DNA of 64,000 bases from Martelella sp. AD-3 (GTDB lineage: Bacteria; Pseudomonadota; Alphaproteobacteria; Rhizobiales; Rhizobiaceae): contig NZ_CP014275.1 in NCBI RefSeq assembly GCF_001578105.1, positions 1,488,001 to 1,552,000 of the forward strand, read 5' to 3'. The translations under genes and the position numbers were made by a program. Of the stretch, positions 535 through 42,533 are shown piece by piece. Each line of letters starts with the position of its first letter. The first letter of the stretch is position 1. The notes beneath the pieces were generated by a model. That model was given only the letters and a program-made list of their open reading frames with translations, did no database searches and was not told the DNA's origin.

Positions 535-1842
535 TCAGGCGGCGATGCTCTGTTTTTCGGATTTCTTCGTTTTTGCTGGCGACCGGCGCGCGGGCAGGCC
601 AACACTGGCGAGCTTGTCGACTTTTCTGTCCAGCTCCTGCACGGCCTTCATGGTGACGCCGACTGCATCCATGACGGGGATGGCCTTGCCGTTGCCTTTG
701 CCGGTGATGCGCTGAAAGTCCTCGGCATAAGGGCCGATGTGCTCGCTCTCGCCGCTGTCGGCGATGCCCTTCTTGTAGCGCCACGCTTCGACCGGCATGT
801 CGTTGACCTGATCGAGCGCGCCGTCGACGGACTTCTTGTCTTCCTTGAAGTCCTTCGAGGAAAGCGCCATCACGCCAAGGCCGGCGAGCGAGCCGATGCC
901 GCCCCAAAGGCTGGAGCTTGATTGCGCATCGGCGGCATTTTGCGCCTGCCATGCATTGAGCTGATTACTGTACTGGGCGTTGAGGATATTGGCCTGATTG
1001 CCGTAGCCGGCCATCGCCGCCTGATAGCCTTGCCCCATGATCGACGCGTTTCCGGCCGACTGCGCGTTGTTGGCGGATGTCGTCTGCATCGCCGCTTGTC
1101 CGCTCGCCGAACTGAGACCCAGCGAGGCCGCCGGGTTGACGGCCAGCCCGTTGCCGAGGTTGATCGCATCCGCCTGCAGCGCGAGCCCCTGATTGCGCAC
1201 GGTGTTGCGGGCGTTGTTCTCGGCGCCTGCGGCGGCAAGAGCGGTTCCTTGCGCGCCGGCCCGCTCGACGCCGGCAAAACGCCCGCTTGTCGGATCGACA
1301 CCCATCGACGCCATGTTGCGTTCTGCGACTTGGCGTTGCTGATTTGCATTGTTCAGAACGTCGGCCTTGGCCTCGGCGGCGGACTTCTCCTGATTTTCCC
1401 TGCTATCCCAGTTTTTCGCCTTGTCGATGAATTCGTCTTGCAACGGCAGGAACCTGTCTTCATAGCGCGCGCGGTCATCGGTCGCCCAGCCCTGCGCCTG
1501 CGCGGCGGCGGCAAGCTGCTGTTCGGTCACCTGCTTTGCGAGCTTGTCCTGTTCGGCCTGTCGCGCATTGGCGACGCCATATTGTTCTCGCATCATCGCC
1601 AGATAGTCTTCGCCGAGTTCCGCCTGCTTCATGGCGGCCTTGCCGATATTCGGGTCGGGCTCCGGGGCGGATGCCTGGTTCTTCTTAAACAGGATCAGCC
1701 GTTCCCATGGTTTCGGCTCATCGTCGCAGTTGGTGTCATGCCGCCAGAACTGAAGGTCGCCAGAAAGGCAGGGGTTTCGCTGCTGCCAAATGGCAAGCAG
1801 CGCTACGGCCATGACAGCAAGGAGGGTGAGCACGTCGGTCAT
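535..1842 (-). CDS. Tail-associated protein with C-terminal S74 intramolecular-chaperone domain
   Basis: 435 residues. An N-terminal hydrophobic helix (about residues 4-18) is followed by a long Ala/Gln/Asn-rich helical region. The C-terminus (about 330-420) matches the S74 family: an SSKDFKEDKKS segment resembling the Ser-Lys cleavage site, then EAWRY, HIGPYAEDFQ and AIPVMDAVGVT. S74 domains help trimeric tail spikes and fibres fold and are then cleaved off. No beta-helix or receptor-binding repeat lies upstream, so the S74 domain may serve an internal virion or injection protein here. AGGAG sits 6 nt before the ATG. The ATG overlaps the stop of the acetyltransferase gene, suggesting translational coupling. 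Confidence 0.8.
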   Translation of the reverse strand: MTDVLTLLAVMAVALLAIWQQRNPCLSGDLQFWRHDTNCDDEPKPWERLILFKKNQASAPEPDPNIGKAAMKQAELGEDYLAMMREQYGVANARQAEQDKLAKQVTEQQLAAAAQAQGWATDDRARYEDRFLPLQDEFIDKAKNWDSRENQEKSAAEAKADVLNNANQQRQVAERNMASMGVDPTSGRFAGVERAGAQGTALAAAGAENNARNTVRNQGLALQADAINLGNGLAVNPAASLGLSSASGQAAMQTTSANNAQSAGNASIMGQGYQAAMAGYGNQANILNAQYSNQLNAWQAQNAADAQSSSSLWGGIGSLAGLGVMALSSKDFKEDKKSVDGALDQVNDMPVEAWRYKKGIADSGESEHIGPYAEDFQRITGKGNGKAIPVMDAVGVTMKAVQELDRKVDKLASVGLPARRSPAKTKKSEKQSIAA

Positions 1843-3850: not shown

Positions 3851-5593
3851 TTATCCTCCCATTGCGATTTCCGTCGGGCTGTAGGCGAGCACGAGGCCGG
3901 TAATGCTCTGGTTCGAGCGGATTTCGATCTCCCATGTCCGGTATTGCTTCTCCCCAGGAAGGCGCATGATCCGGTTCAGGTCGTAGCCGGTCCAAATCGC
4001 TTCGCCGTCGCCGTAGAGCGTTGCCGAGAAGGTCACATCGCTCTCTTCAACCGGGTCGAGCAGGCTGCCGCCAATGGTCGTCAGGCCGATCGCCTCTTCG
4101 CCAATGGTGCCGCCGGTTTGGCCTGAGGCAATCAGTTTCGCGTTGCGTTCCCGTTTGGCGGCGTTCTTCGCGTTGATCTCCTGCAATTGCGCCGCCGTCA
4201 GCGAAGGATCGCCTTCGATCAGAATGCAGGTGAACATGCTCCACGAGTTCAGAACGAATTTCTTCGATCGCCACAAAAGCTCGCCATAGGGTTCCGAAAT
4301 CGCGTCCCATTCGTAGACATCGACGCCGTTGCGCAGGATGAAGAGGCGCCCGGCACCGACTTCGAAGAACATGGCGTCGGCATCATCGCTGGCGCGCACC
4401 AGAAAGGGCGTTCCGCCGGACAGGTCCATGATCATGATACCCCGGCGGGCGACGCCTTTTTCGTCGGCATAGTTGTAGGAGGCCATATAGCGGCCGGCGA
4501 ACTGGCCGGCGATGAAGGTTTCCGGCTGCATGAAGCGCCATTGATCCATGGTCAAAACGGTTTCCGACGCGACGACGGCACCGTTCTGTGACACGGCGAC
4601 AAGGCCGCGCGGCGATGGGTAGGCGACAGCATAGCCCAGGTCCACAATGCCTTGAGCGGACAGGCATGGCAGGTTCACGCGAAGGCGGTCCATCACCATG
4701 TTTTCCGGTGCCGTGCCCTGCGCCACATAGGGCGATCCGGTCGTCAGGATCGCGATGGAAGAGCCGAAGCAACCGAGGCCGACAATGTCGTAGTCCACCG
4801 TCAACACGTATTTTTCCGGCCATGCATGCGGCTTGTAGGGTTCAGAAAAATAGACCTTCTTGCCGGAGAACGCCGCCATCATCCCGTTGGGCATGGCGAT
4901 CAACCCGGAGAGGTCGTCCGGCGGCGCGTTGAAGTCGGTCGACGGGATAACCTCCTGAATGGGATTGTCGGCGATCACATCTACGAAATTGCCGGTCTGG
5001 GCGGCGCGTTCGGCGATGAAATAAAGTTCGGTCGCGCCAAGGGCTGAGGTTTGCGAACGATAGATGCGCATTCGGTTGACGCGCCTGCCTGCCGGCGGGT
5101 CGGCAAAGCCGTTCAGCGTCACCGTCGCGCTGGTATCCACCAAAACCTCGTTGGAAAGGTCCGAAGGCTCGCTTTCCTCATCCAGCGCGGTCACCCAGGT
5201 ATAGGCGTAGAGCACGGTAAAATAGGTGTCGTCGTCAATCGCAGAGCCGGTCGATGCGACAACCGGGCTTGTCGGGCGTGCGAGCGCAAGCAGTGTGGTC
5301 TGCCCATCGGCCATCACTTTCGGCGCGCCGTCGCCGGTGATGTAGAGGCGATCGGAGGCGACCGGTCCCGGAACGACATGAACATGCGATGCCCAGGCAA
5401 GCCATTGGTCGCCGGACTTGTAGATCGTCTTGGCCGCTTCATCGAGGCGCGTGACAAACCGGCCGCGCCGGATCGGCAAAAGGTCGCCTTCCTCAAGCTT
5501 GGTGTTTTGCGCGATCTGCGCGAAATTCTTCTGAAGCAGCCGTGGGATCAGGCGCGGAATTTCGCCTGCAAAGGAGGCTATCCGGATCGCCAT
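3851..5593 (-). CDS. Phage tail/neck structural protein, beta-rich
   Basis: 580 residues. Beta-rich sequence with repeated bulges (YTWVTALDEESEPSD, DFNAPPDDLSGLIAMPNGMMAAFSG, YVAQGTAPENM) that resembles the propeller-like packaged-DNA-stabilisation or tail-closure proteins of podoviruses such as P22 gp10. The resemblance is by pattern, not proven. ATG 5593 overlaps the stop of the preceding gene (TGATG). It is cotranscribed with the small protein 5593..5964 and lies after the tail enzymes. It probably belongs to the tail hub or neck. Confidence 0.7.
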   Translation of the reverse strand: MAIRIASFAGEIPRLIPRLLQKNFAQIAQNTKLEEGDLLPIRRGRFVTRLDEAAKTIYKSGDQWLAWASHVHVVPGPVASDRLYITGDGAPKVMADGQTTLLALARPTSPVVASTGSAIDDDTYFTVLYAYTWVTALDEESEPSDLSNEVLVDTSATVTLNGFADPPAGRRVNRMRIYRSQTSALGATELYFIAERAAQTGNFVDVIADNPIQEVIPSTDFNAPPDDLSGLIAMPNGMMAAFSGKKVYFSEPYKPHAWPEKYVLTVDYDIVGLGCFGSSIAILTTGSPYVAQGTAPENMVMDRLRVNLPCLSAQGIVDLGYAVAYPSPRGLVAVSQNGAVVASETVLTMDQWRFMQPETFIAGQFAGRYMASYNYADEKGVARRGIMIMDLSGGTPFLVRASDDADAMFFEVGAGRLFILRNGVDVYEWDAISEPYGELLWRSKKFVLNSWSMFTCILIEGDPSLTAAQLQEINAKNAAKRERNAKLIASGQTGGTIGEEAIGLTTIGGSLLDPVEESDVTFSATLYGDGEAIWTGYDLNRIMRLPGEKQYRTWEIEIRSNQSITGLVLAYSPTEIAMGG

Positions 5594-5964
5594 CAGATGT
5601 CCTCTACCGCGACTGACGAGACGGAAAGCCTCGGCAGGTTTTGGTCGCCGCCACCGATCGACAACGCCATCAGCGCGGCCACGGTCAGGCGCAATTCGAG
5701 TGCGTCTCCGGCGGAATAGGCGCGGGCCATCGAGCCTTCCTGCCCGCGCGCAACGGTGATGACATCGCCATTCCTGGAAGTGGCGCGGCAAAACTCGATC
5801 TCACCATTGACGTTTTCGAGCGCGACCGGAAACCAGCTTCCGTCGGATGTTGAAAGGGCGGGAAACCGCTGGCCGTGGCCGGTCAGCACGCGCAACTCCG
5901 TTTCGCTCGCCCCCACAGAGACCGCGAGCTTGCTGCGCACATTGTTGGCAAGCTTCACAGCCAT
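5593..5964 (-). CDS. Small phage structural protein
   Basis: 123 residues. The sequence has a compact beta pattern common in phage tail and fibre-attachment proteins: SETELRVLTGHGQRFPAL, then EIEFCRATSRNGDVITVARGQEGSMARAYSAGDALELRLT. The phrase 'ARGQEG...A...GD.LELR' is typical of small virion proteins that connect fibres to the tail. It sits 3 bp after the GH48 protein gene and overlaps the next gene by 1 bp, so the three are surely cotranscribed. It may link the enzyme-bearing tail proteins to the tail hub; that is an inference. Confidence 0.7.
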   Translation of the reverse strand: MAVKLANNVRSKLAVSVGASETELRVLTGHGQRFPALSTSDGSWFPVALENVNGEIEFCRATSRNGDVITVARGQEGSMARAYSAGDALELRLTVAALMALSIGGGDQNLPRLSVSSVAVEDI

Positions 5965-5967
5965 CGC

Positions 5968-8385
5968 TCACACCTCCGCCAGATCGGCGAAATACTGGTG
6001 CATCGCGCCAAGCGAAATCGCGTATTCGGCATTCGCCCAGAAGCGGTGATAGGTGAATTCGGGCACATTCGAGTCAATCGGATTGTCGAGATAGGCCTGC
6101 ACCTTCGGCCAACCGGGATCGTTCTTCATGAAGGAGCGCAGGCTGATAAAGGTCGCGCCGTTTTCGATCGGATCGCCATTCGGCATCGTGCCGGCAAAGC
6201 CGGGGGGCACATAGACGGGATCGCCGTAACGCGCGTAGTCGCTGCGCTTTTCCGGCTTGGTGACACCTTTCTCGTCACGGTAAAGCGTCCAGATGCCATC
6301 GAGCAGGCCTTTTGCCAGCGCATAGGCCTCCTCAGCGGTGTGGCTGCCATTGGGGATGGTTGACGTGAACTTGCCCATGACGCGCTTTGCCTGGGCATAG
6401 TGGATGAGCAGGCCGGCCAGTGAGGAGGCCACCCCGATATCCTTGCCCCATGCGACAATCTCGAATTTGAGGCTCGGATTGGGCACAGTATCGGCCTTCC
6501 AGAATGCGGCATAGTCGCCGGTGCCGTCCCACGAGGTTTGCGGGATAAACTCATACACCCCCTCAAGATTGGCTGTCGTCGTCGTCTCGCCTGCGACCTT
6601 TGCGCCCGTGGTCCAGTCTAGCGTGTCGGGCAGAAGGAAATCATTGTTCTCATCGATCTGGACCGTATCGAGCACAAAGTTGACGAACCGGTCGAGAATG
6701 ACTTGCAGATTGTTGCGGACAGTGGTGGCAAGCTCTGTGTTCTTGTCGGCCACCTCAAGCAGAAGGTCGGCCGAGCGGCCAAGCCCCCAGGCCTGAAAGC
6801 CGAACCAGTTGTTCGAGGGCGGATCGTGCCAGACCGGCGCATAGGTGTAGTACATGCCATAGAAGGTGGCGTTCTGGCGTCCATCGGTCGGGGTCTCGTA
6901 GCGCCCAAGCCACGAATTGGTGACGCCCCCGGCAATCGGCCCGGCCTCGGTTTGCAGCCAGCGCAACATCTCCATCTGCCGGTAGAGCGAGCCAAGCCAG
7001 ATATCGCCGGCTGATGGCGAGGCAGGTTGATAGCCGCCGCCGCCGGTTGCCATGAAATAGGCGATGTCGGGCGCCTGATACCCTTGATGCGATTCCGAGG
7101 AGCCGATGCGAAAGCCCCATGAGGCCTCCTGTCCGTTGGCGGGCACTTCTCCGCCCCATGATACATACCACGACACAAGGAAGTGGCAGGCAAGATAGGG
7201 GTCCTGATCGGTCGATCCTTCAGCCCGGTTCGGCCCGATCTGTCGGAAATATTTGTCCATCAGTGCGTAGCGCAGATAGTCGCCCATCTTCTTCGCTTTG
7301 GTGTCGGATACGCTGATCGCCGATGCGGAGCCTGAAGCTGTCGCGAATTTATTGGCCCAGAACGCCCATTGAATGGTGCGCGCCTCTGCATCGGGGGCTG
7401 AGGTGTAGCGCCATTGCCTGCCAAAATCGAAAGGGGCGTCCGAATGAACAGGCTTGCCCTTGGAGAACAGCGGCAGGTAGCCGTAATCGCTGCCGAATTG
7501 CCAGTCCTCCCACTCCGGGTGCGGCACCGTCTCCCAGGCGCTTTCCTGAAGGCCGCGCTGGTAGTTGTTCATGTAGACGTTCTTCGTCGCGCCGTCGCCA
7601 TTGTGGAAGCCATAGACGCCGTCAACGTCCAGAATCCAGTGCATGAGATACATGCTTTTGCTGCCGTAGGTGGTCACCAACTCATTGTAGAGCCCGTCCA
7701 CACCCTTGGCAGCATTTGGCTCGCCAAGGCGCGGATATTGATCCGGCGTGTCAGCTTCCGGCGTGTAGTCTGCCGGGCTGGAGGGGGAATAGGCGCCGAC
7801 CGGCTGGTTGGTGTCGCTCGGGATATAGACGTCTTCGATCGCTGCCCAGGCTTCGTTGTAGCCCGACCACGCGCCATCAATAATGCCTTTCATCGCCTCA
7901 AGGCCGACCCAGAAGGATGCCGTTTCGGAAACGGTCTGGTGGCCCCAGTCCGGCGCCTCGACAATCAGCGTTTCGGGGATGTGGTAGGGCAGTGACGGCG
8001 CGCCGGCGCTTGCCGGGCTGAAATAGCCGTTATCCGGGTCGCGCAACTGATCGTACATCCAACGGAAGCGTTCGGCATAGTTGATTGCGTCCGGCGGGGT
8101 GACCACGCCTGGCAAAATGGCGATGCCTGTGCCGTCGGCCACTGTCAGGCCGACAGGGTTGGAAAATTCGAGCGTGAACCGCTCCTCGGCCGCGCCTTCG
8201 ATATCGTCGCGAACCGGGACGACAACATCCTTGCTGGTTTCTCCGGGTGCGAATTCCAGCGTGCCGGCGGTGGCGGTATAATCGTCGGGCGCGGTCGCCG
8301 ATCCGTCCCTGGTGGTGTAATCCGCCGAAACCGTCGTATCGCTTGCCTTATCGAGAACGACGTTAAATCGTGCCTGTCGTGGCAT
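5968..8385 (-). CDS. Phage tail protein: Calx-beta domain + glycoside hydrolase family 48 catalytic domain
   Basis: 805 residues from ATG 8385, behind AGGAG. Residues 1-95 form a Calx-beta-like domain, related to the one that starts the neighbouring collagen-like protein. From about 101 to the end it matches GH48 reducing-end cellobiohydrolases along the full length. Landmarks: YAERF...DPDNGYFSP, PYHIPETLIVEAPDWGHQTVSE (Glu154, at the general-acid position), YNPSSPA-like YSPSSPADYTPE, LYNELVTTYG, MHWILDVDGVYGF, QRGLQESAWETVPHPEWE, and QWRYTSAPDAEAR (Asp332, at the proposed base position). The active-site motifs look intact. There is no signal peptide, dockerin or cellulose-binding module, which fits delivery as part of a virion rather than secretion. 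The likely role is cutting cellulose-like glucan on the host surface or in biofilm. Confidence 0.85.
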   Translation of the reverse strand: MPRQARFNVVLDKASDTTVSADYTTRDGSATAPDDYTATAGTLEFAPGETSKDVVVPVRDDIEGAAEERFTLEFSNPVGLTVADGTGIAILPGVVTPPDAINYAERFRWMYDQLRDPDNGYFSPASAGAPSLPYHIPETLIVEAPDWGHQTVSETASFWVGLEAMKGIIDGAWSGYNEAWAAIEDVYIPSDTNQPVGAYSPSSPADYTPEADTPDQYPRLGEPNAAKGVDGLYNELVTTYGSKSMYLMHWILDVDGVYGFHNGDGATKNVYMNNYQRGLQESAWETVPHPEWEDWQFGSDYGYLPLFSKGKPVHSDAPFDFGRQWRYTSAPDAEARTIQWAFWANKFATASGSASAISVSDTKAKKMGDYLRYALMDKYFRQIGPNRAEGSTDQDPYLACHFLVSWYVSWGGEVPANGQEASWGFRIGSSESHQGYQAPDIAYFMATGGGGYQPASPSAGDIWLGSLYRQMEMLRWLQTEAGPIAGGVTNSWLGRYETPTDGRQNATFYGMYYTYAPVWHDPPSNNWFGFQAWGLGRSADLLLEVADKNTELATTVRNNLQVILDRFVNFVLDTVQIDENNDFLLPDTLDWTTGAKVAGETTTTANLEGVYEFIPQTSWDGTGDYAAFWKADTVPNPSLKFEIVAWGKDIGVASSLAGLLIHYAQAKRVMGKFTSTIPNGSHTAEEAYALAKGLLDGIWTLYRDEKGVTKPEKRSDYARYGDPVYVPPGFAGTMPNGDPIENGATFISLRSFMKNDPGWPKVQAYLDNPIDSNVPEFTYHRFWANAEYAISLGAMHQYFADLAEV

Positions 8386-13800: not shown

Positions 13801-13896
13801 CCGCCGCGCCCGCGTGATCGGGACGTCTTTCTCTTCAATCCGGCGGCCAACGGTCTCCGGATCAAAAAAAGCTGGGTTTTGTACGCTTTGCGGCAC
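10816..13896 (-). CDS. Tail depolymerase: GH5 endoglucanase fused to PL7-like alginate lyase domain
   Basis: About 1026 residues from GTG 13896 (GAGG 8 nt upstream). Residues 1-140 look like a virion-attachment domain. About 165-410 hold two immunoglobulin-like 'choice-of-anchor' modules (VNFGMIELGTQSAPLSLTLANRG). About 413-780 is a GH5 catalytic domain with IRLPFSGDF, VLDHHR, LHNEPHD (acid/base Glu near 574) and IWIGEFGG (nucleophile Glu near 693). A Gly-rich linker leads to a PL7-like lyase (about 800-1026) with ARSELRE, AQLH (Gln/His near 912/914) and YFKAGAYAQ (Tyr near 1001). All catalytic landmarks are present. It should cut beta-1,4-glucan and a uronate polymer. It overlaps the preceding gene by 35 bp. 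Confidence 0.85.
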   Translation of the reverse strand: MPQSVQNPAFFDPETVGRRIEEKDVPITRARRLFDYGAHMAEHIVKRSEDWLDWRLDLMRWLEPDEAITGVVATAFPSDLIIPEIGFTDTDVVLWMAGGKDHMRHSVRLTVTTSRDKIKIFRFVVLTIGQEPLFIFVSVETDGVQIGRLAIPETETDPIGPIIVADPAVVNFGMIELGTQSAPLSLTLANRGDINAPVRALKVTGDFAFTSEPLLLLRPGTSFPVHLTFSPVSEGVRTGKLFLLTGDDETLLVARLVGEAIVTATPPVLSVGDAVIEDVDLVRPALSVGPAIIETIDVEDGSSITLVAFRTDFGNVPVGSRSLSFTGRLIKGGDRPLHYENLQVTPPFYFDAAEGLPPTSGTLELAGNSVGFSLYFQPETEGVATGTLSVTSDADIVNADRVQLTGTGGGISRLKIAFNQFARVDNGFRVRLKSVNWFGAEGTNYTPHGTWARGFRAIIDQIRAFGFNTIRLPFSGDFTASGRTPPATAIDFDLNPEFIGKNALEILDIILDYCAEKGLYVVLDHHRRQAGVGADGAPTGSFYSEADWLAAWGVMATRYANHPAIAGADLHNEPHDLTWDAWARLAETCGNHILSIAPDWLIFVEGVGNIDDDYYWWGGQLKGVATRPIQLNVANKVAYSPHEYGQSVGSQPWLAYDGQTLPANWPLNLYSVWRDHWGFIFEDNIAPIWIGEFGGHYGLDGSGNLTKPHAQYERQWTEELVKYLNADFNGDGTDARGPTNPGMSFAYWSFNPNSGDTGGLVQDDWQTPQTPKLELIAPLLTGGDGNGGGGTPDPSPADILNIGAASGQNHFRLQVGKTGETEVTYIEQSVLSGGYEEAPYFTVIDNQAVQFQVRLDAPRTGGSQYARSELRETTASGGDMGFNPFSGTHVLSGKSRITHLPPSKPEVVVAQLHNGDRDRVAIRTQLISGKTMLLCRVNGTSSGLPRFDEDYAIGTEFEWMIRIENGAVSVFYGDMNTPLFESDALQSTGSDSWYFKAGAYAQSNESTDDGDEYVAVELRDLASSHA

Positions 13897-14464
13897 GCTG
13901 CTGCCCTCGCATATTGTAGGCGAAATGACGGTCGAGAACCGCGTCGAACTTGTTTTGGAAAAACACGCCCATCTGCGGGTTTGAATAGGATTGGTTCGGC
14001 AGGATCAGGAGAGAGGCTACGGCCCCGTCGGCAATGGCCTGCCCGAACTCGGCAACAATGCTGGCAGGCAGCATGTCGGCATCGTCGGCAGGTTTCAGAT
14101 AAAGCGAAAGCGCCAGTTTTCCCGCGCCGCGCGGCGCGAGCGATACCGAATTGGCCGAGAATTGCGTGATGAATTTGGGCTGGCCTGCGCCGTGGTGGCT
14201 GATTTTGTCAGGTGTTGGCGCTGCCGCCTCAAGCCTGTGGCCATCAAACGTCGCCCAGTCGATCTCGAACAGGCTGGCAAATGGCGGCACGCACATCACC
14301 TCGACCGTATCGCCGAAAGTCTCGAACACGTCGAAGAAGCGCCAGCACCGTGTGCGCTTGCACAGTTCGCTCGCCGCGTCGCGTAAGTGCATGACGGCGA
14401 GCGGTTCCGGGCATGCCGGGGCATAGGTGTTGACGCGCGGCAGCAGGGTTTCGATTTCGATCAT
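13862..14464 (-). CDS. Phage neck/tail structural protein
   Basis: 200 residues. No enzyme motif is visible. An N-terminal segment (PRVNTYAPACPEPLAVMHLRDAASELCKRTRCWRFFD) of helix-forming residues with two Cys is followed by a beta-rich region and a basic C-terminus. Genes of this size and type directly after the DUF6682-like adaptor are common in podoviruses and encode virion connector proteins. ATG 14464 overlaps the stop of the adaptor gene (TGATG), and the 3' end overlaps the GTG start region of the GH5/PL7 gene. All three genes are therefore likely translated in a coupled way. Confidence 0.7.
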   Translation of the reverse strand: MIEIETLLPRVNTYAPACPEPLAVMHLRDAASELCKRTRCWRFFDVFETFGDTVEVMCVPPFASLFEIDWATFDGHRLEAAAPTPDKISHHGAGQPKFITQFSANSVSLAPRGAGKLALSLYLKPADDADMLPASIVAEFGQAIADGAVASLLILPNQSYSNPQMGVFFQNKFDAVLDRHFAYNMRGQQRAAKRTKPSFF

Positions 14465-15195
14465 CACGCGCCCCCGGTCTGATCGACGCCGGAGGCGGCA
14501 AACGGCACGCCGGGCTTGATATTGGGTGAGGTATTGGCCTCGACCCGTACCTTGATGCCAAGTGCGTTGGCGAATTGCTGATAGTGCAACACGGCGCGCT
14601 GGGCACTGCCGGCAAACTGGGCGTCCTTGGAATAGGCGCGATACATCACATAGTCGATCAGCGCGTCATGGTAGGTTTCATCGAGCGGGATCGGGATTTC
14701 ATAGCTTGCAAGCTTGGTGAAATCGCCATCCGGCCTGATCTTGTCGGGAATTTTGGCCAGCACGGCCTCGATCGCGCCGGTCCCGTCATTGCCGGGATAG
14801 ACATAAAAGGTTTTCGGGTTGGCCTCATCGAACAGCACATGCTTGACCTGGCCTTCAAAGCGAACGGAAATTTCATCGTCCCAGTCCGGCTTGACCGCGC
14901 TCAAAGCCTCGCTGCTGACAACGGTAATGCGGCGGCGCGGCAGCCGGTCGGTGGCGTTGGTCCGGATGTTGCGCACGGGCCGGAGCAGTGCTGTAAACCC
15001 GTCCGACACATTCTGGCGCACGCCGCGCGCCATGCGGAGCGTTTCCGTCACCGCTGATGCGCTCGGCTTTTGCAGCGTGATGGCGTCGAGGCCAAAATTC
15101 AGCCATTGGCAAAGCTCGGGGAGCGACCAATGCACATAGCCGTCATCCAGAAGCAGCGTGGACGCCGCCGAAAAGATTTCACTGGCCGTGCGCAT
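14464..15195 (-). CDS. Head-tail adaptor-like protein (DUF6682-like)
   Basis: 243 residues. It begins RTASEIFSAASTLLLDDGYVHWSLPELCQWLNFGLDAI, the typical start of podovirus adaptor proteins annotated as DUF6682. Later motifs are NPKTFYVYPGNDGTGAIEAVLAKIP and DETYHDALIDYVMYRAYSKDAQFAGSAQRA. Related proteins of T7-like phages (tail tubular protein A) form the ring that joins portal and tail. AGGAGACAGCAGTC precedes the ATG. It is placed after the capsid genes and before the tail genes, as expected for a connector. Confidence 0.78.
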   Translation of the reverse strand: MRTASEIFSAASTLLLDDGYVHWSLPELCQWLNFGLDAITLQKPSASAVTETLRMARGVRQNVSDGFTALLRPVRNIRTNATDRLPRRRITVVSSEALSAVKPDWDDEISVRFEGQVKHVLFDEANPKTFYVYPGNDGTGAIEAVLAKIPDKIRPDGDFTKLASYEIPIPLDETYHDALIDYVMYRAYSKDAQFAGSAQRAVLHYQQFANALGIKVRVEANTSPNIKPGVPFAASGVDQTGGA

Positions 15196-16622: not shown

Positions 16623-17726
16623 TCAAGCCTCGTTCGGGTCACTCGCTGCGGTATCGATGGCGACAACGCCGAAGTCGCGCTTGTTGAAGCGGGTTTTCGA
16701 AACGCCAATGATGGTGCCGGCGGCGACCGACGGCTCATTGCCGTAGTCGTCGACCTCTTCCTTCCAGGTAAAGCGCAGACCACCCGCCGTGCCATGGGCA
16801 ACAACGGCTGCCTGCGTGCCCAGGAACAGCGCGCGCGAGGCGCTGACATCCTGCCCGGCGCCATAATCGGAAAAGCGGATCACGCTTTCATGGCTGTGCA
16901 GCACGACATTGTTGATCATGCCCATCGAGCCCCGGAAGATCGGGCTCTTGCGTCCTTCGGACGCGGCCGCCGCCTTCTGGATTTCAAGCCAGCCGGTCTG
17001 GCCGGATTCGGTCCTCAGGTCATGCTCCTGATAGGGCGACATCACGGTGACATAGTGCTTCTCGCCACTGATCTTGATCGGCAGCAGATTGGCGTTGCGC
17101 GGGTCCTTGGCGCGCATCATCCGCGCCTTGTTGGCCGCACGCTCGATCATCAGGCGCGACATCTTGTCATCGGCGGTGATCGTTGCCTTGCTGGCAGCAT
17201 CGCCGCCAAACAGGATATGCTGGCCATCCGGCGCCCGCAGCTCGTTGCCGGCATGGCCGTCATAGTCGAGCGGGAAGGCTTCATAATCCTCGTTGATGCC
17301 GCGCGCGCCCGACATATAGATGAAGAACAGCTGATCGACATATTGCGACCACCAGTCGGAAAGACGGTCCTTGGCGACGCGGCGCAGATCGTGCGCGGTG
17401 CGCTTGCGGGTCATCTTGCCGCCGGCCGAGACCGACTTGCGAAGCTGGTCGATGATGACCTCGTCGGTGAAGAATTTGAGCTGTTCTTCCGTGCCCTTCA
17501 GGCGGTTGTCGCCCGATGTCGGCCCGCCGCGCAGCTGCACCGACAGGTCAAAGGAAATGCGGTCGCCCGCATCGGATTCCAGTTCGGTCTTGCGCTGGAT
17601 CACGGCGTTTTCGGAAGTGCTGATAAAGCGCTCCCAGTAGCTTTTCGCCAGGGTCTCGACCAGCAGACGGCCAGACCATTTCATCTGGGCCTTCGGATCG
17701 CCGAAGGGGATCGTGGTTTGTCCCAT
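16623..17726 (-). CDS. Major capsid protein, N4-gp56 family
   Basis: 367 residues. The sequence fits the N4-gp56/HK97-fold major capsid family: an N-terminal KWSGRLLVETLAKSYWERFISTSENAVIQRKTELE, then DRISFDLSVQLRGGPTSGDNRLKGTEEQLKF, DRLSDWWSQYVDQLFFIYMSGARG, MRAKDPRNANLLPI and VNNVVLHSHESV-type segments. ATG 17726 is preceded by GAGGGTGG. An own promoter is visible 66-95 bp upstream, which suits a gene needing high expression and restarts transcription after cargo gene 17921..18526. Confidence 0.88.
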   Translation of the reverse strand: MGQTTIPFGDPKAQMKWSGRLLVETLAKSYWERFISTSENAVIQRKTELESDAGDRISFDLSVQLRGGPTSGDNRLKGTEEQLKFFTDEVIIDQLRKSVSAGGKMTRKRTAHDLRRVAKDRLSDWWSQYVDQLFFIYMSGARGINEDYEAFPLDYDGHAGNELRAPDGQHILFGGDAASKATITADDKMSRLMIERAANKARMMRAKDPRNANLLPIKISGEKHYVTVMSPYQEHDLRTESGQTGWLEIQKAAAASEGRKSPIFRGSMGMINNVVLHSHESVIRFSDYGAGQDVSASRALFLGTQAAVVAHGTAGGLRFTWKEEVDDYGNEPSVAAGTIIGVSKTRFNKRDFGVVAIDTAASDPNEA

Positions 17727-19768: not shown

Positions 19769-22138
19769 TTACGGATTGGGAGCGGTGCCGGGCGGCATGG
19801 AAGGTGGCCTGCCTTGCTGCGGAATGCCTTGTTGATCTTGCTGGGGCGGCGACTGGCCCTGCTGTGCGGCAAGCGCCTGCTGCCGCGCGGCTTCGTCGCG
19901 CATATTGTCGGATTGCATGATGGCCGCCTGCCGCTCGGTTTCCTCTTGTTCGGATCGGCCCATAAAGCCGCTTTCATGCAAAATGCCGTCGGCCACCGGC
20001 ACGGCGGCGGGCGCGGAAAGGGCGGCCATCGCGGCCTCAAGCGCCCGTATCTGCGTATCGACATTCTGGCCGGCGAGAGAGGCGAGCACCTGCCGCGTTG
20101 CCGCCTGATCTTTCGCCGATGATACGATGTCGCGCTGCGCGCTGGCGGCGGATTTCTGGGCGCTGGCCTCGTCCTTGGCGATCTTGGCCATCACCGCGCG
20201 TTCCTGAATTTGCTGCTGGCGCATTTTCAGCTGCTCTGCGGCCTGTTCTTCCGGCGTCATTTCCTCGGCGTCGGGGTCGCGCTGGCCGGTGATCTGGCGA
20301 ATGCGCTTGACGAGTTCTTCGCGGCTGTCGATGTCCATGCCCTCGACCAGAAGATCGAGCATCACCAGCACCACCTGCGGGGCCACAGGGCCGATCTGTT
20401 GCAGCAGCGCAAACAGTTCCTCGGTCTGAGTCTGGCGCACGCTGGCGCGCCAGTCGGTGTCGGAGATGATGAAATCCGCCTTGGAGCGGATAATGTCGTT
20501 TTCCGGCAACCCGTCATTCACGTCCACCCATTCCGGCGTGCCGCGCGTGTTGGTGATGCGAAATTGCTTTGGCTGGGTGAAGAATTGCTCGATCGCCGAA
20601 AGCTCCTTGCCGCCATGGATCAGCACGGCAAGGCGCAGATTGTCGAAAATGCCGGCGGTCGCCAGCGAGCCCTGGTCCTGCCGTGCGGTGATCGCCCGGC
20701 CGGAAACCGCATTGGTGGTGCGCCCCAGGCTTTCATCGGTCACGCCGGAAACCGACTGGATCATCGAAATATCGCGGCTCATCATGTCGAGATGGGCGGC
20801 GGCCAGCTCCCGCTCGGCATTGATGGTCAGGTCATAACCCTTTTTCTTCACGAGGATCGCGTCCGGGCGGGCGGCCTCCTCGCGGAATTCGTCAAGGTCA
20901 TCGACCGCGCCTTCATCCATGATGACCTTGTTGGTCGAGATGATGTGCAGCGCCTTGGAGGCGCGCTTGTTGATGTCCTCCTGAATGTCGCGCAGGCCCC
21001 GGATCACACCGTAAGGCAGCTTGTCGCGGCCGCGCCGGTAACACCAGATCGGCGTGAACGGAAAATCATTATGCCGATACGGGCTTTCGCCATCATAAAG
21101 CATGCCGGACGGGCAGAAGATCGAAACATGCATGCGCATCGAGCGCGGTCGCTCGACAGGTTCGCCGCGTCCTTCGGCAATGTCAGCCTCATGGCCCGGC
21201 GCCGGGTTTTGCGGATCGTAGATTTCGCCGGTAAAATCGCCGCCGGCCATGCGATGCACATCACGCGGATAGCGGTGCCAGCACTCGATCAGCCGCACAC
21301 GCGGCCGCTGAACGTCGTAAAGCGAGGTCGAGCTGGAAAGCCGGGTAAAGGCGCTTTCCAGTATCGCCTCCTGGCTGTCCATCGCCTCGTCGCCATCCGT
21401 GTCCGATCCGTAGACGCGCACGCCGTCGGCAAGGGCCGCGCGGGCCAGCAATCCGCGCCGTTCGGGAAACATCGCGCTCGCCACATCCAGATCGACCCAT
21501 TTGGTGCGGAAGATATAGCGGCAATCGGAAAGGTCCTTTTCGGTGCAGGCGCTGTCCCAAAGCATATTGCGCCAGCTCTCGGCGCGGACATAGACCGGCT
21601 CGCCTTCGTCCTGCGCCTGCAACCCCACCTCAAGCCAGCCAATGCCGGTCTTGACGCTTTCCTCAAAGGCGTTGGAGCGGTGAAACGGCGAGCGGTTCAC
21701 ATCGCTCAGATATTTCATCAACTGGGTCTTGCGGGTCGCGGGCTTGCCCGCCTCCTTGCGCCGGGGCAGGATTTTATAATCCGTGCGGCCGCGTTTCTCG
21801 GTGCCGATGATCCAGTTGACGGTGGTGTTGATGACGTTGAAGACCAGCGCCTTCTGCCCGCGCTCTTCCAGTTCGCGGGCATTTTCCTCGCTCCACTGGA
21901 TGGAGTCGTAGAAATCTTCATCGAGCGCCTGTTGCGCCCGGTTTTCCGCCTGCCGCTCCAACTCGTTTTCGTAGAGCCCTAAAAGCCGTTTCAGCCGGGC
22001 AACAGCCCTTTCGCTATCGAGCCTGTGCAGCGCCTTGCCTTCAGGCTGCGCCGTCTCATTCCTGTCCCACGGATCGGACGCGCGCACCATCCGCCCTTCG
22101 CGCAGGTCCATGCCACTTTGGGTTTCCGGCTCAAACAC
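19769..22138 (-). CDS. Portal protein (P22-like)
   Basis: 789 residues from GTG 22138, which overlaps the stop of the upstream gene by 8 bp (ATG 22111 is an alternative). The sequence matches the large podovirus portal family: FYDSIQWSEENARELEERGQKALVFNVINTTVNWIIGTEKRGRTDY near the N-terminus, then WRNMLWDSACTEKDLSDCRYIFRTKWVDLD, YRHNDFPFTPIWCYRRGRDKLPYGVIRGLRDIQEDINKRASKALHII and ESLGRTTNAVSGRAITARQDQGSL. The C-terminal 170 residues are Gln/Ala-rich and helical, like the barrel of P22 portals. It forms the dodecameric DNA entry ring and docks the terminase. Confidence 0.88.
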   Translation of the reverse strand: MFEPETQSGMDLREGRMVRASDPWDRNETAQPEGKALHRLDSERAVARLKRLLGLYENELERQAENRAQQALDEDFYDSIQWSEENARELEERGQKALVFNVINTTVNWIIGTEKRGRTDYKILPRRKEAGKPATRKTQLMKYLSDVNRSPFHRSNAFEESVKTGIGWLEVGLQAQDEGEPVYVRAESWRNMLWDSACTEKDLSDCRYIFRTKWVDLDVASAMFPERRGLLARAALADGVRVYGSDTDGDEAMDSQEAILESAFTRLSSSTSLYDVQRPRVRLIECWHRYPRDVHRMAGGDFTGEIYDPQNPAPGHEADIAEGRGEPVERPRSMRMHVSIFCPSGMLYDGESPYRHNDFPFTPIWCYRRGRDKLPYGVIRGLRDIQEDINKRASKALHIISTNKVIMDEGAVDDLDEFREEAARPDAILVKKKGYDLTINAERELAAAHLDMMSRDISMIQSVSGVTDESLGRTTNAVSGRAITARQDQGSLATAGIFDNLRLAVLIHGGKELSAIEQFFTQPKQFRITNTRGTPEWVDVNDGLPENDIIRSKADFIISDTDWRASVRQTQTEELFALLQQIGPVAPQVVLVMLDLLVEGMDIDSREELVKRIRQITGQRDPDAEEMTPEEQAAEQLKMRQQQIQERAVMAKIAKDEASAQKSAASAQRDIVSSAKDQAATRQVLASLAGQNVDTQIRALEAAMAALSAPAAVPVADGILHESGFMGRSEQEETERQAAIMQSDNMRDEAARQQALAAQQGQSPPQQDQQGIPQQGRPPSMPPGTAPNP

Positions 22139-22562
22139 GGTCGATGATCTCCGCACGCGTCTCCTTGCCCGTATCGTGCTCGACCTTGAGGACATCGGCG
22201 ACGACACGGACAAGCGCTTGCTTGGGAGGAATGGAAAGCAGATCGCCCAAATGGTCATGGATCAGCGAGACGACACGCATCGAGGCGCGCATATTGCTGA
22301 AATCCATCCCGTTGAGGTCAAGAAACTGCTGCACCATCGCCGCATTCGTTTCCGGCATGGCATCAGGATCGTCCGGGTTCCACTGCCACGCATCATCAAT
22401 GGTGACCACCAGCGGCCGGCACCGCTCATGCCCAATGCGGTTGGCGGGCACGACCACAAGGCAAGGCCGCGCCTTGTCGGCATACCATGTGCCGTAGAGG
22501 GCCAGCTCGCCCCGGCGTTTTTGAAAGTGGTAGTGGGACAGGTCAATGGCGTGCTGAATCAT
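22131..22562 (-). CDS. Conserved-looking phage protein upstream of portal, function unknown
   Basis: 143 residues. No catalytic motif is visible. It has aromatic and His-rich N-terminal sequence (AIDLSHYHFQKRRGELALYGTWYADKARPCLVVVPANRIG) and an acidic middle. Its stop overlaps the portal start, so it belongs to the portal transcription unit. It is the first gene after cargo gene 22736..25084 and has a predicted operator and an extended -10-like TGCTATATT 31-48 bp upstream on the minus strand. A role in packaging or head assembly is plausible only by position. Confidence 0.6.
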   Translation of the reverse strand: MIQHAIDLSHYHFQKRRGELALYGTWYADKARPCLVVVPANRIGHERCRPLVVTIDDAWQWNPDDPDAMPETNAAMVQQFLDLNGMDFSNMRASMRVVSLIHDHLGDLLSIPPKQALVRVVADVLKVEHDTGKETRAEIIDRV

Positions 22563-25116: not shown

Positions 25117-26751
25117 TCAAACCGCCATCGCCGACTTGTTCCGCCGCTTCGGCACTCTTTGCCGCTTGCTTCCCGCGCCAGCATCACTGCCATAAACCTG
25201 TGCCCATTGCCTGAGCGCGTCGGCAGCCTCCGAATTGCCGTCGCTCTTCACCGGCTCGTCGCCGAAAGCGCCAACGCTCGCAATCCATTTCTTGCGGTAA
25301 TTGTCGATATGGTCGATGCCCTCCTTGCAGTTCTCGGCATCGATCCATGCCAGCGCCAGCATGTCGCGGGTCGCCTGAATGCCGTGCTGCAGTTCGGCAA
25401 CGCGCTCAACGATCTCGACATTGCGTAGTCCCAGCCGCTCCAGCATCTGCTTGGGCGTCAGATTACTGTTTTCGCCCTGCCGCTCGTGGTTGCCGTCATG
25501 CGGCAAATAGTGCCGGCCCCAGGTGTAGCCGAGCGCCTGCATTTCGCTGACAAAGAAGCTGTAGGGCTCGCCCCAGCCTTCGAGAAAATGGATAAAACGG
25601 TGCTGCTGGCCCACCTGCTGGTGAAACCAGATTGCGGTGCCGTCCGAATTGCCAATGTCCCAGAAGGTGTTGACCGGATAGCCGGGCGTAAACGGCACGG
25701 TGGTGATTCGCCGCTCCTTGCGCATCCGTGTCATCTGAACGGTGTAGTAGCAGCCCTGTGATGATTTCTGGAATGCCTCGTCGGGTGTCGACGGGTATTC
25801 CTGCCACATCTTTTCGTCTTCGCCGGAGAATTCGTTGTCGCGTGTGCTGATCCACCAGGCGCGCTGCTCGATGTCGAGCATCGTCGCCATTTTCTCCTCG
25901 ACCTCATTGAAATATTGATGCTCGATGGCCGATATCTCCACGTCGTCGGGGTCCATGCGGTAATGCATGTCGTCCCACCACGGGAAGAAGTTGAAATGAT
26001 ATTCCTTGTTGGTCAGCCGCCGGGGGAGCGAGGCAAGCCGTCGGGCACGCTGGCACATCTTGAAGAAATGCCCCTCGCGGCCTTCCGCCGTGCTTTCGAT
26101 GAAGATCATGCCGCTGGCCGCCGCCGGAATGGTGCCGGTAATCACCTCGTCGGCGCGGTCCGGCCGCTTGGCGCAGATTTTGCCGAACTCGGAAACATGC
26201 AGATAATGCAGCGTGCCGGAGCGCAGCGAGGTCGCCACCCGGATCGAGCAATTATTGTGGGCAAACAGCAATTCGTCGGCGCTGTCGCGCTTCAGCGGCA
26301 TGGCGGCGCGCAGCGCTGCCGGCAGGTTCTCATAGGCGAACTTCACCTTGTCGCGAAAGATCGCCTTGGCCGCGTCCTCTTCATGCGCCACGATGCCGGC
26401 CCGGATCGGCCGGTCCTTGTGCGAAAACAGCGCGCAATCCAGAAACAGAATGCAGATCAGCGTGGTAAAGCCGAGCTGGCGCGCCTTTAAGATGATATTG
26501 CGCTTGTGCAGCCGCTTCAAAAGCCGCCGTTGGGCGCGGTTGGGCCTGAACGGCACGACAAGCGGCTCCGCGTCGGCGTCTTCCTCGCCGTTCTCGTCTT
26601 GCGGCTTGATCATGATCTTGTAGAGCTGCCCGGAACAAAGCCGCCACAGCGGATCGGACAGGCACATCGCCATGTCTTCGGGCGAGGACGGCACGAAATC
26701 GAGCGGCACGCCGCCTTTCACGTCCTTTCCGCGCTGCGTGCCCAGGATCAT
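25117..26751 (-). CDS. Terminase large subunit (packaging ATPase-nuclease)
   Basis: 544 residues. The ATPase part has PFRPNRAQRRLLKRLHKRNIILKARQLGFTT (the KARQLGFTT Walker A variant of terminases) and a Walker B region LHYLHVSEFGKI, then GMIFIESTAEGREGHFF. The nuclease part has FWDIGNSDGTAIWF (first catalytic Asp), HYLPHDGNHERQGE and DNYRKKW. It drives ATP-dependent DNA packaging through the portal and cuts concatemers. The start ATG overlaps the small-subunit stop (ATGA). The 33-bp gap to the convergent cargo gene stop at 25084 holds no clear terminator. Confidence 0.93.
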   Translation of the reverse strand: MILGTQRGKDVKGGVPLDFVPSSPEDMAMCLSDPLWRLCSGQLYKIMIKPQDENGEEDADAEPLVVPFRPNRAQRRLLKRLHKRNIILKARQLGFTTLICILFLDCALFSHKDRPIRAGIVAHEEDAAKAIFRDKVKFAYENLPAALRAAMPLKRDSADELLFAHNNCSIRVATSLRSGTLHYLHVSEFGKICAKRPDRADEVITGTIPAAASGMIFIESTAEGREGHFFKMCQRARRLASLPRRLTNKEYHFNFFPWWDDMHYRMDPDDVEISAIEHQYFNEVEEKMATMLDIEQRAWWISTRDNEFSGEDEKMWQEYPSTPDEAFQKSSQGCYYTVQMTRMRKERRITTVPFTPGYPVNTFWDIGNSDGTAIWFHQQVGQQHRFIHFLEGWGEPYSFFVSEMQALGYTWGRHYLPHDGNHERQGENSNLTPKQMLERLGLRNVEIVERVAELQHGIQATRDMLALAWIDAENCKEGIDHIDNYRKKWIASVGAFGDEPVKSDGNSEAADALRQWAQVYGSDAGAGSKRQRVPKRRNKSAMAV

Positions 26752-27572
26752 GCGGTATTCCCTTTATCCGGGATGTCCTTGTCTGAATCGGTTTCGCTCA
26801 CAGGGCGGATCAGGGCGCCGGGCAGTTGCTGCAACAGCATCTCAAGCGGGTTTTCCTTGTCGCCGCCCAGCATCAGCTTGTCGTTGAACATGCCCAGATG
26901 CCGCATCAGCTTGTCGTAGATCACGGCGCGATCGATCATTTTGACCCTGGTGCCGAACTGGGTTTCCTCGACACCCTGATAGATCAGCCTTGCGCCGCCG
27001 GTCAGAAACCGCGTGTCTTTGATATGGGCGCTGCCGATCCCCTCGCCATGGCAGCGCGGGCAATCGTCATGTGGCAGCTTGCTGGCGTCATAGCCATAGC
27101 CGCCTTCATCGCCCGGAAGGTCGGGTTCCACATCGCGCGCGCGCGCTTTCTCGGCAATCTTCTCGCAGGTGTCGAGATACTCGGTCTCATCCACCCACTG
27201 AAACCCGTTGTCGATCCCATAGCAATGGCGGCACGCGCCGCGCCGGTATTGCACAAGCTCATTGGTATCGGCGGTCAGCATCGCATAGAGCCGGCGCACA
27301 ACGTCATTATGCTCGATGGCGACAGCCTCGCGCCGTGCCGCCATGGCGGCGTCGATGGCTGCTTTGACCTTAGCATTTTTTAGCAACTTGGAGGCGCAAA
27401 CAGCAGCGGTTCGCTCATTCGGCTGCCGAAACGCCCGCATATAGGCATAGGTCGCCCGCATATCCTCATCGGCCAGCAATGCGTCGATAAATTCCTGCTG
27501 ACGCGGCGTCAGCCGCGCGCACCGTCGCTTGGGCGCGGCTTTGCTGGTGGGGTTCTTCGTGGTTCTGGGCAT
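26748..27572 (-). CDS. Terminase small subunit with embedded zinc-finger-like motif
   Basis: 274 residues. The N-terminal domain (LTPRQQEFIDALLADEDMRATYAYMRAFRQP...ASKLLKNAKVKAAIDAA) is the helix-turn-helix DNA-recognition part of small terminases. About residues 108-185 contain CRHCYG and CPRCHGEG, a four-Cys metal-binding pair known from a subset of longer small terminases. It recognises the packaging site and loads the large subunit. The gene is the first of the late operon and has its own promoter and operator upstream (27616..27645). GAGGGAAG precedes the ATG at a long spacing. Confidence 0.85.
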   Translation of the reverse strand: MPRTTKNPTSKAAPKRRCARLTPRQQEFIDALLADEDMRATYAYMRAFRQPNERTAAVCASKLLKNAKVKAAIDAAMAARREAVAIEHNDVVRRLYAMLTADTNELVQYRRGACRHCYGIDNGFQWVDETEYLDTCEKIAEKARARDVEPDLPGDEGGYGYDASKLPHDDCPRCHGEGIGSAHIKDTRFLTGGARLIYQGVEETQFGTRVKMIDRAVIYDKLMRHLGMFNDKLMLGGDKENPLEMLLQQLPGALIRPVSETDSDKDIPDKGNTA

Positions 27573-40975: not shown

Positions 40976-42154
40976 TCAGAGCTGACAAACGCAGAACTTT
41001 GCCCAAGCGTCCATGAGTTTGCGCCGCTTATCGAGAGCATCACCCCGGCGGTAGGCGCGCTCTGTTTCATCGCCGACAATATGGGCAAGAGCGGCTTCAG
41101 CGACCTCGCTCTGAAAATTGGTTTCCTCCGAGACCCAATCGCGGAACGACGAGCGAAAACCGTGAACGGTGAAATCGCCACCGCCATAGGTCTTGAGTGC
41201 CTTGGTCATGGTCATATTGCTGATCGGTCGATCCGCCCGCGCGCCGGGAAACACAAAGCCATCCATCCTGATTTGCTTCATGCCCTCAAGCACCGCCAGT
41301 GACGGCGGTGAGAGCGGCACACGATGCAGCCGCTTGGCTTTCATGCGGATCGCCGGAACGGTCCAGACCGCTTCATCAAGGTCAAACTCGTCCCAAAGCG
41401 CGCCCATGACCTCGCCTGTCCGCGAACCTGTCAGGATGGTGAAAGCCAGCGCCCGTGCGCCGACCCCGTTTGAGGCCGACAGGCGCTGAAAGAAAGCCGG
41501 CACGTCCTTGTAGGGCATGGCCGCGTGATGTCCGCGTGTGAGCTTCTCTCGCTTCGGCAGGATATTGTCGAGGTGACCGCGCCAGCGGGCCGGGTTCTCG
41601 CCGTCGCGCAGGCCGCGCGCCTTGGCGTGATCCAGAACCTTTTCGATCCGGCCACGAAGGCGGCTTGCCGTCTCTGCTTTGGTTTTCCAGATCGGCTTGA
41701 GGACACGGACAATGTCGTCGGTGGCGACGTCGGGCACCGCGATCTTGTGAAGCGGTTCGGCGTAGACATCGAGCGTCATGCGCCACTGCGCGCGATGCTT
41801 CTCGTTGCGCCAGCTGTCTTCCATGGCCGCGATATAGTCGTCGGCGCATTCGCCAAATGTCGTCACCCGCCGGGCCGCCTTGCGCTCTTCCATTTCCGTG
41901 AAAGGATTGCCGCCGCGCCCCAGTATCGCTCGGATTTCCTCAGCCTTTGCGCGCGCGTCGGCGAGCGAGACCTGCCCGGTCCCGGCGCCATAAACGCCGA
42001 GCCCCATTTCGCGGCGCCGGCCGTTCCTGATATAGATGAAAACGAAGTGTCGATTGCCCGACTTGGCGCGGTGAAGCCAAAGACCATCGCCATCGCGCAG
42101 CTTGGCCTTCGTCGCGTTTTTGATCTCTTTTACGGTGAGAAGATTGCGCGCCAT
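40976..42154 (-). CDS. int: P4-type tyrosine integrase
   Basis: 392 residues. It starts with the DUF4102-like arm-binding domain of P4-family integrases (KATKAKLRDGDGLWLHRAKSGNRHFVFIYI). The catalytic domain has ILTGSRTGEVMGALW (first Arg), FTVHGFRSSFRDW (His-x-x-Arg) and ALAHIVGDETERAYRRGD (His and the nucleophile Tyr). All catalytic residues are present. It integrates and excises the prophage by site-specific recombination. It is transcribed leftward into the phage, with its 5' side facing the right attachment region. Confidence 0.92.
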   Translation of the reverse strand: MARNLLTVKEIKNATKAKLRDGDGLWLHRAKSGNRHFVFIYIRNGRRREMGLGVYGAGTGQVSLADARAKAEEIRAILGRGGNPFTEMEERKAARRVTTFGECADDYIAAMEDSWRNEKHRAQWRMTLDVYAEPLHKIAVPDVATDDIVRVLKPIWKTKAETASRLRGRIEKVLDHAKARGLRDGENPARWRGHLDNILPKREKLTRGHHAAMPYKDVPAFFQRLSASNGVGARALAFTILTGSRTGEVMGALWDEFDLDEAVWTVPAIRMKAKRLHRVPLSPPSLAVLEGMKQIRMDGFVFPGARADRPISNMTMTKALKTYGGGDFTVHGFRSSFRDWVSEETNFQSEVAEAALAHIVGDETERAYRRGDALDKRRKLMDAWAKFCVCQL

Positions 42155-42533
42155 TTCACCCCTTGGAAGCAGGTCCGGGGCGAACGAATATCTAAACCCT
42201 TAACGGCTTCTGATCCTAACGGTGATCCTAATATCAGTCTGTTGCTGTAAATGTCAATATTGACATCATTGAACTCTAGTTCACTGATTTTATTGAAATT
42301 GCTGATGCTAAAATGTTATCAATTTCGATATTGTCTCTATAAGAACGGACTTCCTCTCCGCCAGATTTCCCTAAGTGTTTGATGTCCTTAAAATCGTTGC
42401 GTCTTCAAAGGGTTGCGTATAGCGTGGCACAATGATTTGGTGCAAAATGTAGCGCGCAAAACCGAGTGGCGCACTGCAAAAGCTCTCGCCCTTTGCCGCC
42501 GACTTCCTGCCATTGATCGATCAGACATCATTG
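42155..42533. other. Intergenic region right of integrase, probable attachment-site region
   Basis: No gene is visible in this 379-bp stretch. It contains a perfect 16-bp palindrome ATGTCAATATTGACAT (42251-42266), a GAACT/AGTTC inverted repeat (42271-42282) and a GATGC half-site of the phage dyad (42304-42308). It is AT-richer than its surroundings. No tRNA or other usual integration target is recognised. The palindrome may bind integrase or its regulators. Confidence 0.4.

Follow-up and report, generated by a model that had tools for sequence, protein, structure and literature searches.

The fusion of a Calx-beta domain to a family 48 glycoside hydrolase (GH48) is already known from the Erwinia phage S6, where it forms the protein gp094, encoded beside the GH5 cellulase gp095 (Roemling 2022 on Knecht 2022, PMC9544554). 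According to this source, E155 and D331 of gp094 are conserved, S6 needs bacterial cellulose, with cellulose serving as its first receptor, and the S6 hydrolases might double as receptor-binding proteins; activity on a model substrate was verified for the GH5 protein gp095 and not for the GH48 protein gp094, and where in the particle the two are located had yet to be established at publication. PMC13101476, PMC9376448 and PMC11512310 agree on the cellulose dependence of S6, the first of these leaving additional LPS use possible, while an endoglucanase is described for the Klebsiella phages LASTA and SJM3 in PMC10052179. GH48 and viral terms also occur in PMC6784887, but GH48 is there assigned to two bacterial genomes. 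Neither a GH5-PL7 tail protein nor a GH48 enzyme in a prophage was found in the literature searched, the coverage of which excludes most subscription journals.

A further example of the fusion is encoded in the window, the 64,000-nucleotide stretch of the Martelella sp. AD-3 genome (5.04 Mb, three contigs) analysed here. The surrounding genes are transcribed from the minus strand in the order terminase, portal, capsid, virion proteins and SU10-type adaptor, followed by tail genes for the GH5/PL7, Calx-beta/collagen, GH48, tail-fibre-like, internal virion and S74-domain virion proteins (Table 1). The S74 chaperone-of-endosialidase domain occurs in the last of these, though PHROGs classes the protein as virion structural and not as a fibre. 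Beyond the left edge of the window come a gene for a virion protein, a single ORF of 5060 amino acids (L006:3936-19118, minus), an endolysin gene and then the tRNA-Ser gene (G000:C1:1469374-1469463) which carries the left copy of the putative attachment repeat. Judged by its position alone, the 5060-aa ORF may be the counterpart of a DarB-like antirestriction gene found in the phages PEp14 and Atu_ph08. The repeat copies start at C1:1469450 and 1530350, 60,900 bases apart, a distance near the length of phage PEp14 (60,714 bases). When the joined left and right host flanks were searched in thirteen genomes of the genus, no match spanned the junction and the relatives matched the tRNA side only, and the placement of the integration site thus rests on the tRNA, the repeat and the integrase. 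In one genus relative (G010, C1:113029 and 125281) the repeat and right flank have a second match approximately 12 kb away from its tRNA-Ser, which looks as if this site had also been used by another element. The capsid, portal, terminase and adaptor families fit the Pavtokvirus/Bcep22-like temperate podoviruses (the capsid alone was compared with PEp14 by sequence), and the capsid relatives include Agrobacterium, Sinorhizobium and Ochrobactrum phages. The element is apparently a complete prophage of a temperate podovirus.

Table 1. Features of the prophage, with positions counted within the window
Feature	Position	Strand	Evidence
Virion structural protein with S74 chaperone-like domain	535..1842	-	phrog_8003, PF13884
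Internal virion protein	3851..5593	-	phrog_511, E=8.6e-168 (match computed on the longer ORF 3851-5791)
Tail-fibre-like protein, 123 aa	5593..5964	-	PHROGs tail fibre families, e.g. phrog_8469
Calx-beta + GH48 tail protein, 805 aa	5968..8385	-	Pfam, structure model, catalytic residues
Calx-beta + collagen-like tail protein, 780 aa	8481..10823	-	Calx-beta, E=6.9e-9; Collagen under cut-off; PHROGs tail families
GH5/PL7 tail protein, 1026 aa	10816..13896	-	Pfam: Gp77 fibre-tail adaptor, Ig-like, GH5, PL7
Virion structural protein	13862..14467	-	phrog_437
SU10-type adaptor	14464..15195	-	PF24175, E=2e-27
Major capsid protein	16623..17726	-	PF13252; 77.1% identity to phage PEp14
Portal protein	19769..22258	-	phrog_156, E=3.9e-171
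Terminase large subunit	25117..26751	-	phrog_2, E=9e-30
Terminase small subunit	26748..27572	-	phrog_51
Tyrosine integrase	40976..42154	-	PF00589, PF22022, PF13356; phrog_1
Putative right attachment repeat (17 bp, identical to the tRNA-Ser 3' end)	42350..42366	.	Sequence script and ARAGORN

A preliminary description of this DNA had proposed that a prophage tail protein carries a complete GH48 domain fused to a Calx-beta domain, with Glu154 and Asp332 at the catalytic positions, and all of these elements were recovered. The ORF is read on the minus strand from an ATG at 8385 (the plus-strand reading of 5968-8385 contains nine stops), and its product begins with a Calx-beta domain at residues 5-79 (Pfam, E=5.1e-15). 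The HMM search against PF02011 (Glyco_hydro_48) which that description had suggested gave a strong match in two stretches, the best at residues 103-595 (E=3.9e-209), and the score of 696.7 bits, well over the curated cut-off of 25 bits, places the protein in the family; a chance match of the ORF is ruled out by this E value. In the structural comparison, likewise suggested there, solved GH48 structures covered residues ~97-805 of the model, in agreement with the family fold. A search of a viral structure library with the predicted structure gave partial best matches, none of them named GH48; given the phage homologues known from sequence, this is no sign of absence.

On this basis, and by analogy with S6, the protein is best explained as a tail-borne cellulase of a temperate podovirus which would degrade host cellulose during adsorption, a reading to which we assign a probability of about 0.75. 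That it acts as a tail enzyme is supported by its place in the tail operon, by its Calx-beta N-terminus, which is common to phage tail proteins (the first 92 residues by themselves share 46-48% identity with tail proteins of other phages), and by the lack of a hydrophobic stretch at this end. The best 11-residue mean is 0.46, as calculated in hydrophobicity windows and not with a signal-peptide predictor, and means of 2.0 or above occur in 1/93 Calx-beta-type relatives, among the matches listed, against 11/19 of the secreted type. The same three features make it unlikely that the gene serves lysogenic conversion, with the lysogen releasing GH48 to digest plant cellulose or remodel its own and the enzyme having no role in the virion, even though the gene lies in a prophage and cellular GH48 enzymes are cellulases that are secreted. 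The fusion is also found in Erwinia phages, among them S6, which PMC9544554 describes as lytic, and this too speaks against the alternative.

The action of the tail-borne protein as a cellulase is suggested by its residues as well as its family and fold. The proton donor E154 and the proposed base D332 line up with the GH48 family, D332 being aligned to the position changed in the D224N mutant of T. fusca GH48 (4jjj, residue 224). Among the Calx-beta-type rows of the alignment (n=57), E143 and D332 are kept in 57/57 and E154 in 55/57, and all three residues are kept in 27/27 secreted-type rows (28 rows minus L033, the frame of which was misread, with 125/522 aligned residues identical). Two related Calx-beta-type GH48 proteins, P0042 and P0050, have R and A at the position of Glu154 and may bind rather than cut; the Calx-beta-type family is therefore not always a plain cellulase. 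These two proteins, together with the suggestion that the S6 hydrolases act in receptor binding (PMC9544554), favour a view of GH48 as a cellulose-binding adhesin in which catalysis no longer matters, but this is likewise improbable, as the three residues are kept in the window protein and E154 in all but two of the Calx-beta-type rows, which is expected under selection for catalysis. With a complete domain and its catalytic residues, the predicted enzyme is apparently intact, and a cellulose-cutting function, also raised in the preliminary description, is plausible from the sequence.

The one part of that description which did not stand is the statement that no phage-encoded GH48 was known, as the Erwinia phages S6, phiEaP8, Hena1 and others carry the same fusion; published phages with this fusion had been named there as removing its novelty, which is thus gone. 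Among 50,697 phage records, thirty gave a match to the GH48 protein. Seventeen of these, some of them duplicates and all from Erwinia phages, are full-length homologues (57.4-62.1% identity), and in the other thirteen the match covers residues 1-92 (twelve records) or 1-175 (Stean). S6 and phiEaP8 belong to the Schitoviridae, and Hena1 to the Vequintavirinae, with its GH5/GH48 pair encoded between a baseplate wedge and a tail fibre. The S6 protein gp094 is 58.5% identical to the present protein over its whole length, and both systems pair a Calx-beta and GH48 protein, its acid and base residues conserved, with a GH5 gene nearby on the same strand. S6 is, however, a lytic N4-like phage without PL7, and its GH5 and GH48 genes are adjacent, whereas the present phage, a temperate podovirus, belongs to a different group and has one gene separating the two. 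Pavtokvirus and its allies (PEp14, Pavtok, Parlo and SopranoGao) have capsids 68-77% identical to the present one, and PEp14 shares the head and tail gene order and a GH5 tail gene, 'cel'. In contrast, the matches of these phages to the GH48 protein are confined to its Calx-beta end and the PL7 part of its partner is left uncovered, and in PEp14 'cel' is followed by an EPS depolymerase gene.

A search of 5.8 billion proteins returned 1246 matches over the threshold, with Calx-beta and GH48 combined in 93 of the best 120 (precomputed Pfam column). Of 334 loci confirmed in the genome collection, 80 were retained. Two of these, L010 from Rhodoblastus acidophilus (57% identity) and L011 from Azotobacter beijerinckii (62%), are near the Calx-beta type, and the rest show at most 44% identity. 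L011 neighbours P2-like tail genes (Tail_P2_I, sheath, baseplate V), and L010 and L093, the latter encoding P0011, named Novosphingobium sp. PhB55, adjoin capsid genes 68% and 70% identical, respectively, to that of the window. A scan of viral contigs gave nine loci with an alignment as query and one with a single protein. A GH5 gene lies upstream of GH48, adjacent or one gene apart, at 12/12 loci examined, although L010/L092 and L095/L096 look like copies. Variations in domain composition were also observed, with GH5 and GH48 joined in a single 1326-aa chain in P0043, and Calx-beta and GH48 combined with a GDSL lipase domain in P0090.

A phylogeny placed 57 Calx-beta-type and 27 secreted GH48 proteins (84 rows; L033, in the wrong frame, left out) on either side of one branch with an SH-aLRT of 100, in an unrooted tree from a short search with SH-aLRT as sole support. 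The Calx-beta-type rows were drawn from the 93 two-domain proteins among the best 120 of 1246 matches plus the named loci, and the secreted rows from part of the 80 kept loci and the listed protein-search matches; 'phage-type' is a label for most of the 57 rows and not an assignment by gene context. The present protein differs from the secreted GH48 cellobiohydrolases (the C. bescii CelA module, Cel48F, CelS and T. fusca Cel48A) in its Calx-beta domain, which stands in the place of the CBM2 domains often found in cellular relatives (Pfam column). A full GH48 was found in 1/13 genomes of the genus and 1/385 of the class sample, in each case the window's own, and in the family sample 19/247 genomes match the Calx-beta/GH48 profile, with the other eighteen, among the matches listed, matching within residues 2-97, the Calx-beta part. 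A host cellulase, as the simpler reading, was rejected on the grounds that the sole full match in all three samples is this genome. Thirty-nine plasmid records match the protein, six over at least 80%, and the full-length ones are of cellular type (37-42% identity).

The nearby GH5/PL7 protein, to which the preliminary description does not refer, is a clearer sign of a cellulose-targeting tail, and its PL7 domain and the temperate podovirus background are the features peculiar to this prophage compared with the known S6 kind. The structures nearest to its GH5 part are the endocellulases CelE2 and Acidothermus E1, and eighteen aligned sequences all keep E573 (HNEP) and E692 (GEFGG). Behind this phage GH5 cellulase is fused the PL7 lyase domain (window 10816-11496, minus), which matches PF08787 (E=8.4e-27; 94.9 bits, cut-off 29.7) and is thus a member of this family. 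Its nearest solved structures are alginate lyases, and RSELRE, QxH and YFKAG, which we take to be the PL7 motifs, occur at 867, 911 and 994 and align with 5zqi and 1uai. The predicted structure of the whole protein has a mean pLDDT of 62.0, below 50 in the PL7 part, which is too weak for use on the jelly-roll fold. Thirty-four phage records match the protein; none covers 80% of it, and the listed matches end at residue 780, ahead of PL7. When the PL7 part was searched alone, eighteen PL7-type proteins were found, the best fifteen at 44-60% identity. Only P0121 among 89 homologues contains PL7. Both P0121 and P0001, a 97% homologue of the GH48 protein, lie on contigs of 72,117 bases, so that they may share one prophage of the same kind.

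The host itself encodes a bcsN-bcsA-bcsB locus, with BcsN, BcsA with PilZ, and BcsB as products and a diguanylate cyclase gene near (L008, G000:C1:630001-648000); BcsN is linked with the Rhizobiales, and together with the phages among the capsid relatives it points to an alphaproteobacterial host of this order. No GH8 (BcsZ family) was found in the host genome. BcsB is present in the window's host, in 2/2 named cellular hosts tested, in 13/13 genomes of the genus (the window's included) and in 28/385 of the class. The co-occurrence of GH48 and BcsB across three hosts is no more than a hint, and BcsB does not set the window's host apart within its genus; as BcsB occurs in all thirteen genus genomes and GH48 in one, host cellulose does not predict GH48. 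That some other beta-1,4-linked polymer of the surface, and not cellulose, serves as substrate is also improbable, for although the well-supported branch between phage-type and secreted GH48 and the PL7 lyase domain of the partner would suit it, the closest structures to the GH5 partner are endocellulases, a cellulose synthase locus is present in the host and no member of the Alginate_exp family was found in its genome.

The tail-cellulase reading is thus supported by the GH48 family, fold and catalytic residues, by the GH5 partner with its Gp77 adaptor domain, and by a bcs locus in the host and the cellulose requirement of S6, which has the same pair. Against it stand the genus-wide BcsB with GH48 in one genome, the possible LPS use of S6, and the absence of E154 in P0042 and P0050. 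As inferred from S6, both the GH48 and GH5 enzymes would be carried on the virion tail, where GH5 would cut inside the cellulose secreted by the host and GH48 would degrade the chains processively, so that the particle, as has been suggested for S6, could cling to the cellulose layer and work its way across it as far as the outer membrane; the PL7 domain may cut a second, uronic-acid polymer. The enzyme thus probably serves passage through the cellulose coat of the host. We suggest tentatively, at slightly less than even odds, that GH5 and GH48 form a mobile virion cellulase cassette, occurring in no fewer than four kinds of virion (N4-like podoviruses, myoviruses of the Vequintavirinae, P2-like prophages and temperate podoviruses of the Pavtokvirus type), with a GH48 lineage distinct from the secreted enzymes and far larger than the published Erwinia examples. 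In the present prophage, PL7 would have been gained, giving a single tail that would attack a mixed biofilm matrix with two cellulases, one an endocellulase and one processive, and with a polyuronate lyase.

The kind of cellulose-targeting tail described for a lytic Erwinia phage is hence encoded in a different phage group as well, by a prophage that is apparently complete, and the database matches suggest that there are many more. The GH5-PL7 and GH48 set makes the crossing of a cellulose biofilm by a phage directly testable, and would be a source of cellulases without cellulose-binding modules. Cellulose-making bacteria may face a widespread class of phages which attack their cellulose.
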